A DNA stretch of 64,000 nucleotides from Terriglobia bacterium. Its GTDB lineage: Bacteria; Acidobacteriota; Terriglobia; Terriglobales; Acidobacteriaceae. Positions 684 through 58,361 of the stretch are shown here, piece by piece. The stretch's first letter is position 1. Every line of letters begins with the position of its first letter. A program made the position numbers and the translations under genes. Location of the stretch: the NCBI GenBank assembly GCA_020073385.1, contig JAIQFH010000017.1, positions 1 to 64,000 of the forward strand. Direction: 5' to 3'. The notes under the pieces were generated by a model. That model did not search any database, was not told the origin of the DNA, and saw nothing but the letters and a program-made list of their open reading frames with translations.

Positions 684-2993
684 CTACTTCTTCTTCCCCA
701 GCTTGCGCGCAATCTCTTCGACAATCTTGGGGCGCATATCGGCGAGCACGCTGTCGACGATGCTGGCGATCTCCGGATCGGAATCGAACGAACCTGCCAC
801 TTCTTCCGGTTTGCTTTCCGCGCCGGCGGCGACTGCCATGGCAGCCCGATCCTCCGGGACAGACTCTTCCGCTGCCTTCACGGATGCCTCTGCCGGCGGC
901 GCCGGCTTCGAACCTCCGGTCTCGCGGATCTTTCTCCAACTGGCCCATGCCGCTGCCGTTTCCGATTCTCTCTTTGCCATTTCGTCTGACCCTCCTGCCC
1001 TGGATGCACTGGAAACCGGCTCCGGCTCCGTGGATACTTCCTCCAACTTTGATTCCTCTTCGTGCCTTTCCGCCTGTGCCACTGGCGCAGGAGTCTCCGT
1101 CTCCTGGGTGGCCTTCTCTTCCTGAATCTTCTCGACTGGAGGCGCCACGACAGCCTCAGCCGTTTCGGCCGCGGCCACGGCCTGCTCCGGCAGTTCTGCC
1201 TCTCTTGGCTGCTCCTCCACTTTGGCTTCGATCTTTTCCTCGGCCTTCGACTCGATCGCCTCTTCGACTTTCTCCTCGACCTTTTCCTCGACCTTCGGCT
1301 CGATCGTCTCTTCGATCTTCGCCTCGACCTTCTCTTCAATCTTCTCTTCGATCTTTTCCTCAGGCCTGGGCTCTGCGTCAGGCACAACCGCCGGGGACTC
1401 GAGCGCTGCGGCCTGCAGAGATTTGTCAGTCACCGGTTCTGGCGAAACCGTACTCCGTTCCGCCTCGTATTTCGCGGCGACCGCTTCCAGTTCTTTCACC
1501 GCAGCGCTGATCGCTTCCGTCCCTGCCTCGGAAACCGCGGCCAGAGGCTGCGCGACTTCCGGCGCCGGTGTGGCGGGAATGGGAGCAGCGGGTTCGGTCG
1601 CAATAGCTTCCGCAATGGGAGATTCCGCGCTCACAACGGGCGCTGCAGTCATTTCTGCAACCGCAGGTTTCTCCTCAGGCGGTGTCGATGCGGCCACGGC
1701 CACCGCCTGACTGCCTTCCGCCGCTGCGAACGCCGCATACGCCTTCTGCATTTCCTGTTCGAGAGAAACGGCAGCCTCGTCGGGAGCCAAAGCTACGGCT
1801 ACCGCGGTCCAGCGCGACGGGTTCGCAGCTGAGTCGGCGACGGCGGCTACCGCCATGGTCACGGGTTCCGGTGTCGGACTCGTCGCACTATTCGTCCCGC
1901 TCCCGTTTCCCGGTATTGGGAAATGCACCGCCATCATCTGCGTCTCCAAGCCCATCATCGCGGTCATCGCGTCCGCCTGGGTGGAGATAGTTTCTGGCTC
2001 CGTGCTCTTTGACTCGATCTTTTCCGCCGGCTGCTGCTCGGCGAATGTCGCGGGAGGCGCTGTCGCCGTTACTTCCGGCGTTGGTGCGGACTCGGGCGCG
2101 CGAACTTCTTCCTTCTGCGGCTCCTTGCTTTCCGGCTTCGCAGCCTCGGCAACTTCAACTTTGGGAGCCTCACTCTCCGGCGGCGCCGTAACCGGCATCT
2201 CCGCAACTGGAGCCGGTGACGCCTCCTCGACGATCTTGCCCTTGATCTGGGCCGCGGCGGCGGCTAACGCAGCAATCTCTTCGGGAGTAACGTCCTTCGG
2301 CAAGCCTTCGGGGGCTAAAGCGCCAACGTTGACGTTGGCTTCTTCTGCCGGAGAAGCTGGGACGTGCATTACCTGGACAGGCGTCGGCTCAAGCGCCGGG
2401 TGAGTGATCACCGTCCGCAAGTCTTTGTTGACTGGGTTGTAGATCTCCGCAGTGTCAACTTCTTCCTCGACCGGTTTTTCCTTCTTCTTCTTCGGAAACG
2501 CGATGCGCCTCTTCCATCCCGTATCGTCTTCCTCGATGGCCATCGTCTTGTCGTACCGGCCTTCTTCGATCGCCGCCGTGGCGCGGGCGAAGCGGCCCGG
2601 CTTCGACGAGTCGGCCCGGGGTACAACCTTGTCTTCCAGTTTGCTCAGGGCGCTCAGTAACTCACTGGCTTCAAAGGGTTTGACGATAAAGCCATCGGCG
2701 CGCACGCGCTTGGCCTCTTCCGGCTTGAAAGGTTCGAGTTTTCCTACGGTTAGCAGGATTGGGATTCGCGAAGTCTCGCCCACTTCCTTGAGGCGCTGGC
2801 ACACTTCCAGCCCGCTGTAGCCGGGCATGTAAACGTCGAGGACGATCAGGTCGGGCTTCTGTTCCCCAATCTTCTTTAAAGCCGCCGATCCGTTGTTGAC
2901 GGTGATGACTTCATACCCCGCGTCCGCGAGGATTTTCCGCCCCATGTTCTGGGCGGTCACGCTGTCGTCGGCAAGCAGTATCTTCCTGGCCAA
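684..2993 (-). CDS. Response regulator with long Ala/Glu/Pro-rich C-terminal tail
   Basis: Single CheY-like receiver at residues 1-120: acidic pair D9-D10, phospho-acceptor D53 (VLDVYMPG), T82 and K105 (VKPFE) are all present, so phosphorylation is expected. The remaining roughly 650 residues are low-complexity, rich in A, E, P and V, with a run of EEKIEEKVE-type charged repeats around residues 540-620. A short ordered-looking C-terminus (about 737-769) ends in a lysine cluster. No DNA-binding or enzymatic output domain is visible. The start is a TTG giving MARKILLADD, needed to include the first beta strand. The tail may be a flexible spacer or scaffold between the receiver and the conserved end. 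The partner kinase is not in the window. Confidence 0.8.
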   Translation of the reverse strand: MARKILLADDSVTAQNMGRKILADAGYEVITVNNGSAALKKIGEQKPDLIVLDVYMPGYSGLEVCQRLKEVGETSRIPILLTVGKLEPFKPEEAKRVRADGFIVKPFEASELLSALSKLEDKVVPRADSSKPGRFARATAAIEEGRYDKTMAIEEDDTGWKRRIAFPKKKKEKPVEEEVDTAEIYNPVNKDLRTVITHPALEPTPVQVMHVPASPAEEANVNVGALAPEGLPKDVTPEEIAALAAAAAQIKGKIVEEASPAPVAEMPVTAPPESEAPKVEVAEAAKPESKEPQKEEVRAPESAPTPEVTATAPPATFAEQQPAEKIESKSTEPETISTQADAMTAMMGLETQMMAVHFPIPGNGSGTNSATSPTPEPVTMAVAAVADSAANPSRWTAVAVALAPDEAAVSLEQEMQKAYAAFAAAEGSQAVAVAASTPPEEKPAVAEMTAAPVVSAESPIAEAIATEPAAPIPATPAPEVAQPLAAVSEAGTEAISAAVKELEAVAAKYEAERSTVSPEPVTDKSLQAAALESPAVVPDAEPRPEEKIEEKIEEKVEAKIEETIEPKVEEKVEEKVEEAIESKAEEKIEAKVEEQPREAELPEQAVAAAETAEAVVAPPVEKIQEEKATQETETPAPVAQAERHEEESKLEEVSTEPEPVSSASRAGGSDEMAKRESETAAAWASWRKIRETGGSKPAPPAEASVKAAEESVPEDRAAMAVAAGAESKPEEVAGSFDSDPEIASIVDSVLADMRPKIVEEIARKLGKKK

Positions 2994-3110
2994 AGGTTTC
3001 CTCTGAAGAGGGGAGATACCGCGAAGGTAACCTGTGCCTCAACCTAAGTCAATGATCCGGAAGGGAAGTAACACGTTACCAGTGGTCAGCACCTTGTGCG
3101 CAGAAGTTAC

Positions 3111-3152
3111 GTAGGGACAGCCGCCTCGGCTGTCCGACGAAGCGAAGCGAGT
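3111..3152 (+). repeat. Family A double-hairpin repeat, copy 1
   Basis: Two adjacent stem-loops: GGACAGCCG with CGGCTGTCC, followed by a CGAAGCGAAGCGAG stem. The same unit recurs near 8419, 22501, 27347, 31240, 32449 and 58391. This copy is slightly degenerate (GTAGGGACAG instead of TGTGGGGACAG). It lies upstream of the GIY-YIG gene. Family letters here are local labels, not database names. Confidence 0.75.
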
Positions 3153-3258: not shown

Positions 3259-3322
3259 TGTCATGCTGAGCGGAGCGGGAGGGGAGCGAAGCGAGCCTTC
3301 TGCGGAGTCGAAGCATCCCTAC
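3259..3322 (+). repeat. Family B repeat, left arm beside GIY-YIG gene
   Basis: Begins TGTCATGCTGAGCGGAGC and ends GTCGAAGCATCCCTACC. It belongs to the TGTCATCCTGAG repeat family seen also at 33167, 42415, 43451 and 58314. It forms an inverted pair with 3723-3789 around the nuclease gene. Confidence 0.8.
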
Positions 3323-3410
3323 CCTCTGCTCGATTCCCGCGATGGGAATGACTTCGGAAAATGTGAGTCCAGTCATTGCCGCCACAACTGAATCAACTGA
3401 GAATCGCGGC

Positions 3411-3749
3411 ATGTCTCGCGATCGCCGTTACTATTGCGTCTACATCATGGGCAGTCTCTCCGGCACGCTCTACATCGGGTTCAGCGGCAATTTGCACAAG
3501 CGTATTTTCCAACACAAGTTCCACCATTTCGAGGGCTTCACTGCTATGTACGAGGTCACTCGATTGCTGTACTGGGAGTCTTACGATGATGTCCACAAGG
3601 CTCTTGCGCGGGAGACGCAGCTCAAAGGCTGGAGCCGGGCGAAGAAGATCGCGCTCATCGTGCCACGGAATCCGCATTGGGTTGATCTCGCTGCTGAGTG
3701 GTACCCGTGGATGCGTGCCGATGGTAGGGATGCTTCGACTGCGCAGTGA
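3411..3749 (+). CDS. GIY-YIG family endonuclease (COG2827/YhbQ-like)
   Basis: Small single-domain nuclease of 112 residues from the ATG at 3411; an upstream in-frame ATG at 3342 would add 23 unlikely residues. The GIY-YIG core is visible: YYCVYI at 7-12 and LYIG at 20-23, catalytic R31 in KRIFQHK, and metal-binding E68 in ARETQLKGW. Such stand-alone proteins nick or cut DNA, and their cellular role is unsettled. The gene is tightly framed by inverted family B repeats at 3259-3322 and 3723-3789. Its last residues (DGRDASTAQ) and stop codon are encoded inside the right arm, so gene and arms form one compact unit of about 530 bp that may be mobile. No clear ribosome binding site is seen. Confidence 0.8.
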   Translation: MSRDRRYYCVYIMGSLSGTLYIGFSGNLHKRIFQHKFHHFEGFTAMYEVTRLLYWESYDDVHKALARETQLKGWSRAKKIALIVPRNPHWVDLAAEWYPWMRADGRDASTAQ

Positions 3750-3789
3750 GACTCGCTCCGCTCTCCTCACTGCTCCGCTCAGCATGACA
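3723..3789 (-). repeat. Family B repeat, right arm (inverted) of GIY-YIG unit
   Basis: Its reverse complement begins TTGTCATGCTGAGCGGAGC and ends AGTCGAAGCATCCCTACC, matching the left arm at both ends with a diverged centre. The 3' end of the nuclease gene overlaps it. Confidence 0.8.
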
Positions 3790-3902
3790 ATTCCAGATTT
3801 TGATTCTCGACACCCCACTGGCTTCCACAGCGATACACTACGGTTTCTGCTTGGACGTAGAGGTCGTCTATCTGCTTCTTGACGTTTTTGATCAGGTCCT
3901 TC

Positions 3903-5369
3903 TCAGAACGGATTGATCTTCTTCAGCCCTTTTTTCTTCTTCCGCTTGCTGCTCGAAAGATCCTGATCGCTGGCCGGAGTCGAATCATCGGCCTTCGCCG
4001 TACTGCTCGAAGACGACTGGTTCTGAATCTCATTCACTTGCGTCGGCGGCGGCAAAGATGTGTCCGTCCCGGAATCCGTGGGCTTCAATTCATTCGGATC
4101 AGCCGGCGCATTCGGTTTCAATTCATTGGGATCTGGCGTAGCAGGCGTTGGCGACGTAGCGGCAGGAGGCGTACCGAACGGCGCATTGGGATTCACCGCG
4201 CTTCCGGCAGGTAGAGCTTCACTCCCCGCAGACTGATCTGGCTTTACAATTTCCACCCCTACTTTGTTCCCGCCGCCCGCAGCGGATTCCACGAAAGCTC
4301 TCGCCTCTTCTTTCTGCACGGTGATCGCGCTAATCGGCTCGGTCTCAATCAGGTTCGGCTCGCCCACTGTAGGCGCCCCCGATACATCTGGTCCCTTCTT
4401 GATGAGCCCCATCGCCCGCTGCATCATCGTGGACTGGGTTCGGCTCTCGATCTCAGCTTTGTTCCGCGCCACCGCAGCCTTGGTCGCACGCGGCACCGGC
4501 TCGTGCAGCGCTTCCAGCCGCTTCTTGGCGTCCTCGGCACGGTCCATCAGCGGATAGCGGGTAAGGATCGCGGAATATTCTTTCCCCGCCTCCTCCGAAA
4601 GCTTTCCGATGGCATGCGCCTTGTCGGCCTCCCTCATGCACCCGCGGGGAAGATTATGCACATCGCACGTTATGCTCTTGCGGATGCGCTCCATCTGCCC
4701 TTCGTAGTTCTGTCCCAGCAGGTAAAGCGCCTCGTCGGCACGGCTGTACAGGGGATACTTTTCCACTAGCGTCTGCAGGCGGGCGATCGATGCGGCGTAC
4801 GACTCGCGCAGGTAGTAAAACCGCCCAATTCCGAACTCTCGATCGGCGAGCACTTCCTGCACCTGGAGCAGCCGCTTCTTGGCATCGGGAACGAGTTTGC
4901 TGTCCGGGTATTGCAGGATCACTTTGCGATATTCATCCTCGGCGCGCTTGGCATGGGTATAGTCGCGATCCGACTTCTCCATCTGCTGAAAATGAATGTT
5001 AGCAATCTTCAACTGGGCTTCGGCGGCTTCTTTCAAGTTAGGAAAGAAGACCTCGAAGTCGCTGTACTCCTGCTCCGCCTGCGCCAGTGCTGCGGTTCCG
5101 CCCTCCGCGTACCAGGAATCGCCCACCGCCAATTTGGCGCGGGCAATGTATTCCGAGTCGGGATAGGTATTGATCAAGGTCTGCAGCGTAAGGCGCGCGA
5201 CGTCAAAGCGGTTATGACGCATCGCGTCCATGGCCTTGTCGAACAGGACCTTGTCGGGCTGCTTAGACCCAACGCCAGCCAGCGGATTGACAGATTTCTT
5301 ATTGGTGCAGGCGGCGGTCAGCGCCAGCAGCACGCCCAGCACGGCAATCAGATGAATTCGACGCAACAT
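3903..5369 (-). CDS. bamD: Outer membrane assembly lipoprotein BamD
   Basis: Lipoprotein of the BAM complex that inserts beta-barrel proteins in the outer membrane. Signal peptide with lipobox LTAAC (Cys about 21), then TPR-like repeats over roughly residues 38-260, including the typical FDKAMDAMRHNRFDVARLTL, YPDSEYIARAKLAVGDSWY and YPDSKLVPDAKKRL segments. After about 300 the protein continues into a Pro/Asn/Asp-rich tail with two ELKPNAP-like units and a lysine-rich end, so at 488 residues it is about twice the usual length. It lies downstream of rpe in the same direction with only a repeat between them, suggesting co-transcription. Confidence 0.85.
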   Translation of the reverse strand: MLRRIHLIAVLGVLLALTAACTNKKSVNPLAGVGSKQPDKVLFDKAMDAMRHNRFDVARLTLQTLINTYPDSEYIARAKLAVGDSWYAEGGTAALAQAEQEYSDFEVFFPNLKEAAEAQLKIANIHFQQMEKSDRDYTHAKRAEDEYRKVILQYPDSKLVPDAKKRLLQVQEVLADREFGIGRFYYLRESYAASIARLQTLVEKYPLYSRADEALYLLGQNYEGQMERIRKSITCDVHNLPRGCMREADKAHAIGKLSEEAGKEYSAILTRYPLMDRAEDAKKRLEALHEPVPRATKAAVARNKAEIESRTQSTMMQRAMGLIKKGPDVSGAPTVGEPNLIETEPISAITVQKEEARAFVESAAGGGNKVGVEIVKPDQSAGSEALPAGSAVNPNAPFGTPPAATSPTPATPDPNELKPNAPADPNELKPTDSGTDTSLPPPTQVNEIQNQSSSSSTAKADDSTPASDQDLSSSKRKKKKGLKKINPF

Positions 5370-33166: not shown

Positions 33167-33229
33167 TGTCATCCTGAGCGAAGGTTTGTTTCGCGAAGCG
33201 AAGCAAACCGCAGTCGAAGGATCCCTACC
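33167..33229 (+). repeat. Family B repeat, copy 3
   Basis: TGTCATCCTGAGCGAAGGTT, then GCGAAGCGAAGC, CGCAGTCGAAGGATCCCTACC. Between purE and purD, directly followed by a family C copy. Confidence 0.8.
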
Positions 33230-42414: not shown

Positions 42415-42458
42415 TGTCATCCTGAGGGCCGCGCTTTTTGCGGCCCGAAGGACCGATG
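42415..42458 (+). repeat. Family B repeat, copy 4 (left of PD-(D/E)XK gene)
   Basis: TGTCATCCTGAGGGCCGCGC, TTTTTGCGGCCCGAAGGACC: stem GGGCCGC/GCGGCCC. A direct copy lies at 43451 beyond the nuclease gene. Confidence 0.8.
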
Positions 42459-42671
42459 CAACTCTCGCCCCGCCGGCGCCCTCGCCCGGGTTGGCATGGC
42501 CATTTCGTGATCCAAGCACAGTGAGCCACGCATTCACCAAAATCTTGTCAATAGGCAGAAATGACACGAATGGACTTAACTCGCTGAAACCATTCACAAA
42601 ATAAATCCCAAAGCTTTGCCGGGTAAATATGCCGAATCTGCTATTCTGAAAGTAGAGAGTAGAAATCAACA

Positions 42672-43450: not shown

Positions 43451-43497
43451 TGTCATCCTGAGGATCGCGCTCTTTGCGGTCCGAAGGACCTCTGCAC
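43451..43497 (+). repeat. Family B repeat, copy 5 (right of PD-(D/E)XK gene)
   Basis: TGTCATCCTGAGGATCGCGC, TCTTTGCGGTCCGAAGGACC. Direct repeat of 42415-42458. Confidence 0.8.
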
Positions 43498-43552
43498 TCG
43501 GACGTTACCGTCCAATTGCGTCTACAACAATGTAGATTGCCAACGGTCGCCC

Positions 43553-58276: not shown

Positions 58277-58313
58277 AGTGCACCCGCTGTACGCCTGTTT
58301 AGCTCGCTGCGGA

Positions 58314-58361
58314 TTGCACAGGTCCTTCGGCCCGCAAAGGGCGCGGGCGTCAGGATGACAA
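58314..58361 (-). repeat. Family B repeat, copy 6 (inverted)
   Basis: Reverse complement reads TGTCATCCTGACGCCCGCGC, CTTTGCGGGCCGAAGGACC. In the gap between the convergent oxidoreductase and APC genes. Confidence 0.75.

Follow-up and report, generated by a model that had tools for sequence, protein, structure and literature searches.

A stand-alone GIY-YIG nuclease gene between TGTC-tagged REP-like arms as a probable miniature mobile element

A small GIY-YIG nuclease gene in Terriglobia DNA is enclosed by inverted, TGTC-tagged repeats, and most of its relatives elsewhere are flanked by matching repeats as well. Gene and repeats together are probably a miniature one-gene mobile element lying between [C/T]GTC-tagged REPs, with the nuclease as their dedicated partner, as RAYTs are for GTAG REPs. 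The arrangement is best read as a partnership of the RAYT/REP kind in which the enzyme is SLX1-like and unrelated to RAYTs. The stretch analysed (the window, 64,000 nucleotides) comes from contig 67, in a genome of 8.23 Mb. The features of the unit and its surroundings are as follows.

684..2993, minus strand: left neighbour, response-regulator protein, a conserved neighbour in relatives without the unit
3259..3789, plus strand: whole unit, TGTCAT...ATGACA, 531 bp, with the same two ends at unrelated sites
3259..3332, plus strand: left arm, TGTC-tagged REP-like repeat
3411..3749, plus strand: stand-alone GIY-YIG nuclease gene (PF01541, E 5e-13), with a longer ORF from 3342
3714..3789, minus strand: right arm, inverted copy, including the last codons and the stop at 3747–3749
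3903..5369, minus strand: right neighbour, YfiO/TPR lipoprotein gene (Pfam and congener comparison)

The unit in the window and related genes of the same genome

The unit starts with TGTCATGCTGAGCGGAGC and ends with the exact reverse complement of TGTCATGCTGAGCGGAGC. Its two arms are 86% alike (BLAST, E 7.7e-18) and perfectly complementary over the outermost 18 nt (3259–3276 with 3772–3789); a second complementary block (84%) pairs 3300–3337 with 3709–3746. The original prediction of inverted arms at both ends is thus borne out, with a correction to their length, given as 64–67 bp and nearer 74–76 bp. Neither arm alone folds better than shuffled sequence (z 0.17 and 1.16), so pairing between the arms is the striking feature. 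The right arm encodes the stop codon and the final residues of the protein, as had been predicted, and the arm-encoded RDAST is found near the C-terminus in 12 of the 14 metagenomic relatives with sequence compared. Directly left of the unit, a small hairpin is present at 3108–3152 (GACAGCCGCCTCGGCTGTC then CGACGAAGCGAAGCGAG), and it also occurs at the unoccupied site in genome G034.

The ATG at 3411 is the more likely start codon, favored over the start of the long ORF at 3342. The 113-aa protein has one Pfam domain and one folded domain in an AlphaFold2 model (pLDDT 88), for which the nearest folds are UPF0213, SLX1, and HIGLE. A Pfam search at E ≤ 0.001 returned PF01541 only, with no NUMOD or other second domain. 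There was also a profile match to BH0048 (UPF0213/YhbQ-like), and an NCBIfam search gave only a sub-threshold match to a group I intron endonuclease. Values of dN/dS were 0.05–0.16 in 12 of 21 pairs with computable dS; by this sequence measure, selection on the gene is purifying. Two other identities were considered and rejected. PADLOC gave no match for a defense gene, and no known RNA family reached its gathering score at the arms, the one lower-scoring match being outside the unit.

The arms are part of a repeat family found elsewhere in the window, as the original prediction stated. TGTCATCCTGAG occurs seven times with at most one mismatch, including the unit's own two ends, against 0.35 expected. 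Genome-wide, the core motif TGTCATNCTGAGCG (at most one mismatch) has 186 occurrences in 8.23 Mb compared to two for a reversed control. Similar solo copies of the left arm are present elsewhere in the genome, and many of the 30 dispersed motif loci that were compared resemble either the window-type arm or the contig-130 type described below. Four dispersed repeats in the window were aligned to these types.

33167..33229, plus strand: dispersed repeat resembling a unit arm (73% to the right arm, E 2.4e-4)
42415..42465, plus strand: dispersed repeat, contig-130 subfamily-like (82% over 51 nt, E 1.9e-7)
43451..43500, plus strand: dispersed repeat, contig-130 subfamily-like (80% over 50 nt, E 7.7e-6)
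58313..58360, minus strand: dispersed repeat, contig-130 subfamily-like (81% over 47–48 nt, both orientations)

The genome has five GIY-YIG matches, consisting of one uvrC-sized frame and four stand-alone genes. TGTC-tagged repeats flank all four of the stand-alone genes, and uvrC is without such flanks. Contig 113 carries the same type of unit as the window, with a frameshifted gene. The genes on contigs 130 and 48 are bordered on either side by a complete repeat dimer (115–118 and 176 bp, respectively), with a separate subfamily for each. The right-hand dimer on contig 130 has a folding z of −11.7 as single-stranded DNA.

Copies of the unit and unoccupied sites

Copies of the unit were compared to identify its ends. 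The contig-113 copy aligns to window positions 3259 to 3795 (83%), and copies in two congeners (G001:C5 and G017:C132) align to unit positions 1–531 at about 71%. A second copy on contig 113 (72411–72706) is MITE-like, with both ends kept and positions 136–371 missing. These two full-length (531 bp) copies and the internally deleted one belong to a set of nine unit-like copies compared; the other six match gene and arms only piecewise. The sequence adjoining the copies differs from one to the next. Exact common ends at unrelated sites, together with the internally deleted copy, give good support to the predicted "miniature mobile unit," and we infer that both the unit and the repeats lacking a gene are mobile. 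No target duplication of 2–6 nt was found at any of 11 solo dimers, a small sample; in this the dimers differ from a DDE-type MITE or IS.

At the window site, the blocks matching the same two neighbors lie 54–113 bp apart without the unit in all seven closely compared congeners, which were drawn from 40 (those left out include G014 and G064, with more than 1.3 kb between matched blocks). Around the window unit there are some 108 and 115 bp of additional sequence, and comparison with congeners gave no exact empty site, as they are only ~77%–89% alike over the left neighbor and the intergenic DNA differs. Genomes of the genus carry between zero and eight GIY-YIG matches each, a considerable share of which are fragments or contain stops.

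A closer comparison is available for Azospirillum lipoferum, in which the gene has a REP dimer on each side and lies between sufB and sufC. Three congeners that are 95%–96% identical at sufB-sufC have neither gene nor REP. A REP-flanked gene is found at this same place in both A. lipoferum (L204) and, by eye, Shinella PSBB067 (L217), and the shared position could reflect recurrent insertion or a hot spot.

The check for empty sites proposed with the original prediction gave a divided result. No REP palindrome was present in 12 of the 14 unoccupied sites examined, comprising seven of seven for the window (one by eye), three of three for Azospirillum, one of one for Shinella, and one of three for Sphingobium; the other two, both in Sphingobium, retain a solo REP. 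Two lone tag-like hexamers are present at the Shinella site. At the Sphingobium site, four aligned strains have the gene, two (TYG64 and TYG74) have a solo palindrome, and one has no REP. By eye, the CGTC...GACG palindrome of TYG64 matches one arm's first half joined to the greater part of the second arm.

These sites bear on the reading that best survives beside our own, that of a free-standing homing endonuclease with the REP as its homing site, where the gene was copied in via the arms and the REPs either spread otherwise or are old. The single palindrome in TYG64 and TYG74, where four other aligned strains have the gene, fits such an enzyme, and GIY-YIG is a known homing-endonuclease fold (PMC1564403). 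However, a deletion between the arms would equally well have left this palindrome as a scar, and the 12 sites without a REP palindrome are a better fit to transposition. In addition, the genes of contigs 130 and 48 and of Azospirillum have a complete REP dimer to their left and another to their right, which splitting a single REP would not produce, and the Pfam search gave no NUMOD or other second domain of the protein. We consider homing unlikely. The Sphingobium site itself fits homing or a deletion between arms, and the data as a whole do not cleanly tell REP-mobilizing transposition from homing into REPs.

Flanking repeats and gene-repeat covariation across genomes

Loci from several sources were used to determine whether flanking repeats are a general property of these genes. 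A profile of ten relatives identified 80 named loci in GTDB genomes and 30 loci from 61 relatives; applied to 199 phylum genomes, the same profile added 28 new loci, and 20 of these are strong matches (77 bits or more in this survey). A single-protein search yielded 33 plasmid records, and 14 of the 33 were analyzed. Flanks were scored as the best inverted or direct match between the left and right 350 bp of a locus, and control pairs were 350-bp stretches 900 bp further out. Six of 137 distinct loci had flanks shorter than 150 bp and were dropped, leaving 131.

A flank match of at least 25 was found for 108 of the 131 distinct loci compared to 4 of 120 far control pairs. This cut-off was chosen after the control distribution was known (99th percentile 28.6, maximum 34), and counts at 30 are therefore also given (100 of 131 loci compared to 1 of 120 control pairs). 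Loci passing the threshold came from every source, with 4 of 4 in the window's own genome, 61 of 74 in named genomes, 17 of 19 in relatives, 16 of 20 in the phylum, and 10 of 14 on plasmids. Ten other GIY-YIG genes (eight weak profile matches, E. coli yhbQ, and the genome's own uvrC) gave no matching flanks. In a separate set of 296 Bacteroidota genomes, 177 had matches (as many as 14 in one genome), and 23 of the 30 best-scoring loci had matching flanks compared to 0 of 26 controls; one locus (L273) is the same as L099 of the first set, leaving 22 of 29 new. Homologs lacking the arms in most genomes would have made the association look like chance, and the relatives are instead mostly flanked. 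By record titles and taxonomy, flanked loci occur in ten phyla: Acidobacteriota, Planctomycetota, Bacteroidota, Chloroflexota, Nitrospirota, Zixiibacteriota, Latescibacterota, Kueneniibacteriota, Pseudomonadota, and Cyanobacteriota.

Scores and appearance do not always agree. Of the 23 loci below the threshold, two plasmid loci, from Aeromonas (24) and Spirosoma (23), have REP-like flanks by eye, and the R. tumorigenes and Photobacterium plasmid loci have no REP-like flanks on both sides within 350 bp. L251 has no flank match, and L252 (25) and L239 (37) are without REP-like sequence by eye. Some Bacteroidota genomes (e.g., G342:C86, G424, and G363) have many GIY-YIG matches, some in tandem and a few hundred bp apart. 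On a Planktothrix plasmid (L210), the neighbors of the REP-flanked gene are a type IIL restriction gene on one side and the DISARM gene drmA on the other.

A protein tree placed seven undecorated controls, including E. coli YhbQ, on one side of a branch and the other 106 proteins opposite (SH-aLRT 87); it was built by a quick method from 113 rows with few columns, after 27 rows with stops or fewer than 85 residues were dropped. The "flanked" label requires 14 changes on this tree compared to 22.1 when shuffled, and none of 500 shuffles was as low.

The repeats at these loci vary in tag and form. The arms compared across several phyla mostly start with TGTCATnnnGAG; the majority in Proteobacteria are CGTCATCCCCGCGAAGGCGGGGATCCA and kin, with a CCTC tag in S. 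meliloti and a relative. Most flanks of the gene in Alphaproteobacteria are canonical CGTC REPs. The CGTC superfamily of Di Nocera 2013 (PMC3733652), which includes RPE-4, RPE-6, and dRS3, is recognized by three marks: the tag, CGTC or often TGTC or CCTC instead; AT at the stem base; and a tail reading CCA. The unpaired tag is TGTC in the window arms and CGTC in L180, L181, L183, L186, L204, L207, L214, L215, L216, and L217. By eye, the stem opens with a complementary AT in the left window arm (TGTC-ATGCT...AGCAT) and in plasmid loci (CGTC-ATCC...GGAT), with Sphingobium (CGTCACC) as an exception. As read from their sequences, a length of 20–40 bp, a stem of 8–9 bp, and a CCA tail characterize the Azospirillum, Rhizobium, Shinella, Neorhizobium, and Aeromonas loci; the window arms do not have this form, being 74–76 bp with a CCC tail and folding no better than shuffled sequence. 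CGTC REP counts in 9 of the 14 plasmid records were 8, 3, 0, 6, 0, 0, 0, 0, and 92, with controls at 0. The last of these, Photobacterium pGJ3-1 (L212), is a 1.7-Mb replicon in which many of the REPs form arrays with a period near 200 bp; its GIY-YIG gene adjoins one such array and has nearby REPs on one side only.

Repeats were counted across genomes with the patterns TGTCATNCNGAGNG for the genus and TGTCATNNNGAGCG for the phylum. Among the 199 phylum genomes, 22 have a strong gene match, and 14 of these hold ten or more motif copies, compared to 7 of the other 177 (Fisher p 2.5e-11, uncorrected for ancestry). Four of the eight gene-bearing genomes with few copies have other tags around the gene (TGTCACCC in L184 and L185, and the CGTCATTCC type in L192 and L194). 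In 37 genus genomes, the window's own included, gene matches are correlated with repeat count (rho 0.55, p 5e-4) and with repeats per Mb (rho 0.44, p 0.006), both uncorrected for ancestry; in these cross-genome correlations one family predominates and the statistics ignore shared ancestry. The TGTCATNNNGAGCG motif was also present in all 16 further named genomes (two of them Acidobacteriota), at 7 to 142 copies compared to 0–3 for the control. Arms track the type of protein and not the genome in all 10 comparisons made, which drew on three genomes, and more similar proteins have more similar arms (Mantel rho 0.31 over 107 loci; maximum of 500 permutations, 0.12).

Ten repeat-rich genomes without a strong gene match were searched with Pfam. 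Seven have a uvrC-sized frame only, four with the motif (G142, 76 copies; G157, 26; G226, 23; G134, 18) and three by the genus pattern (G005, 53; G018, 41; G022, 51). The remaining three (G184, 72; G254, 12; G087, 19) have an additional GIY-YIG frame that is small or weak, with no REP-like flanks around it. The strongest exception is G142, in which several of the 76 TGTCATNNNGAGCG copies are close to contig ends.

Such genomes would be expected if the REPs were moved by another enzyme (RAYT, TIRYT, or IS) and either gathered around a useful GIY-YIG gene or marked tolerated sites, and Acidobacteria do have Y1 "TIRYT" genes (PMC3733652). Against this, left and right flanks match each other at most loci in the ten phyla, the arms are specific to the type of protein, and the ten other GIY-YIG genes are undecorated. 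The same paper reports no tyrosine transposase gene flanked by CGTC units and only fortuitous association of other transposases with them. We find this explanation improbable, more so than homing. Chance, in which so abundant an intergenic repeat (~186 motif copies in the 8.2-Mb genome) would have fallen to the left and right of the gene by accident, was rejected on the near and far flank comparisons and the four flanked genes of the window's own genome, and carries practically no weight.

Proposed mechanism and comparison with known systems

The original prediction described a REP-mobilizing unit, provided that the nuclease acts on the repeats, and a parallel to RAYTs with a nuclease of another fold. 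The association of gene and repeats is found across the loci above, and the parallel fits; that the nuclease cuts REPs and drives their spread is what we infer. In the mechanism that we propose, a REP would be extruded into a hairpin or cruciform, and the SLX1-like nuclease would recognize its tag together with its stem and nick or cut at the junction of tag and host DNA. Host repair or replication could then copy whatever the REPs enclose, whether or not that includes the gene, into another location. GIY-YIG enzymes hydrolyze DNA without a covalent intermediate, and joining would therefore fall to host enzymes, unlike in RAYTs.

A broader proposal, to which we give roughly even chances, is that stand-alone GIY-YIG nucleases are dedicated mobilizers of the whole CGTC/TGTC REP superfamily in bacteria generally, perhaps including Rickettsia RPE and Neisseria dRS3, and form a second, independently evolved system for spreading REPs, with hydrolysis of hairpins in place of tyrosine transposition. 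REPs are common bacterial repeats, and GTAG REPs already have a candidate mobilizer in the RAYTs. For CGTC REPs, Di Nocera 2013 (PMC3733652) found no apparent dedicated transposase and left the question open. With a GIY-YIG partner, CGTC REPs would gain their missing mobilizer, a new class of enzyme would join those that spread miniature DNA, and the multicopy small "GIY-YIG nuclease family" genes of some genomes would be explained. A search of the open literature (with preprints and subscription papers outside its scope) found no paper linking GIY-YIG genes to REPs; "GIY-YIG" and "repetitive extragenic" co-occur in one, PMC9465073.

Several known systems share part of this arrangement. SLX1 and HIGLE are the closest catalytic folds after UPF0213 and cut branched DNA, but they are eukaryotic, SLX1 is multi-domain, and neither is known to be associated with repeats. 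Stand-alone UPF0213/YhbQ-like proteins share size, fold, and the profile match to BH0048; in contrast, the flanks of E. coli yhbQ do not match each other, and in the tree its protein joins the six further undecorated ones, away from those that are decorated. GIY-YIG homing endonucleases of the I-TevI type have the domain and a similarly selfish-looking distribution. Unlike those enzymes, which combine GIY-YIG with a DNA-binding (NUMOD) domain, the 113-aa protein has a single Pfam domain, no second DNA-binding domain was found in it, there is no intron, and the flanking repeat family is dispersed in the genome.

The CGTC-tagged REP superfamily (Di Nocera 2013) has the same [C/T]GTC tag, AT stem foot, and head-to-head dimers, and its canonical copies flank the gene in Alphaproteobacteria, whereas the Acidobacteriota members described here are longer (about 70–180 bp) and less regular. 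REPtrons (GTAG REPs with a RAYT, i.e., a TnpA-REP or Y1 HUH transposase) differ in enzyme and tag, since the gene here encodes a GIY-YIG nuclease and not a HUH transposase, with PF01541 as its only match, and the tags are CGTC/TGTC (TGTC in the window) and not GTAG. RAYT and IS200-like elements are not known to produce target duplications. REPtrons share this trait with the units described here, along with subtype-specific pairing, a patchy distribution, and a small gene flanked by REPs of which gene-less copies and dimers of the same subfamily are dispersed in the genome.
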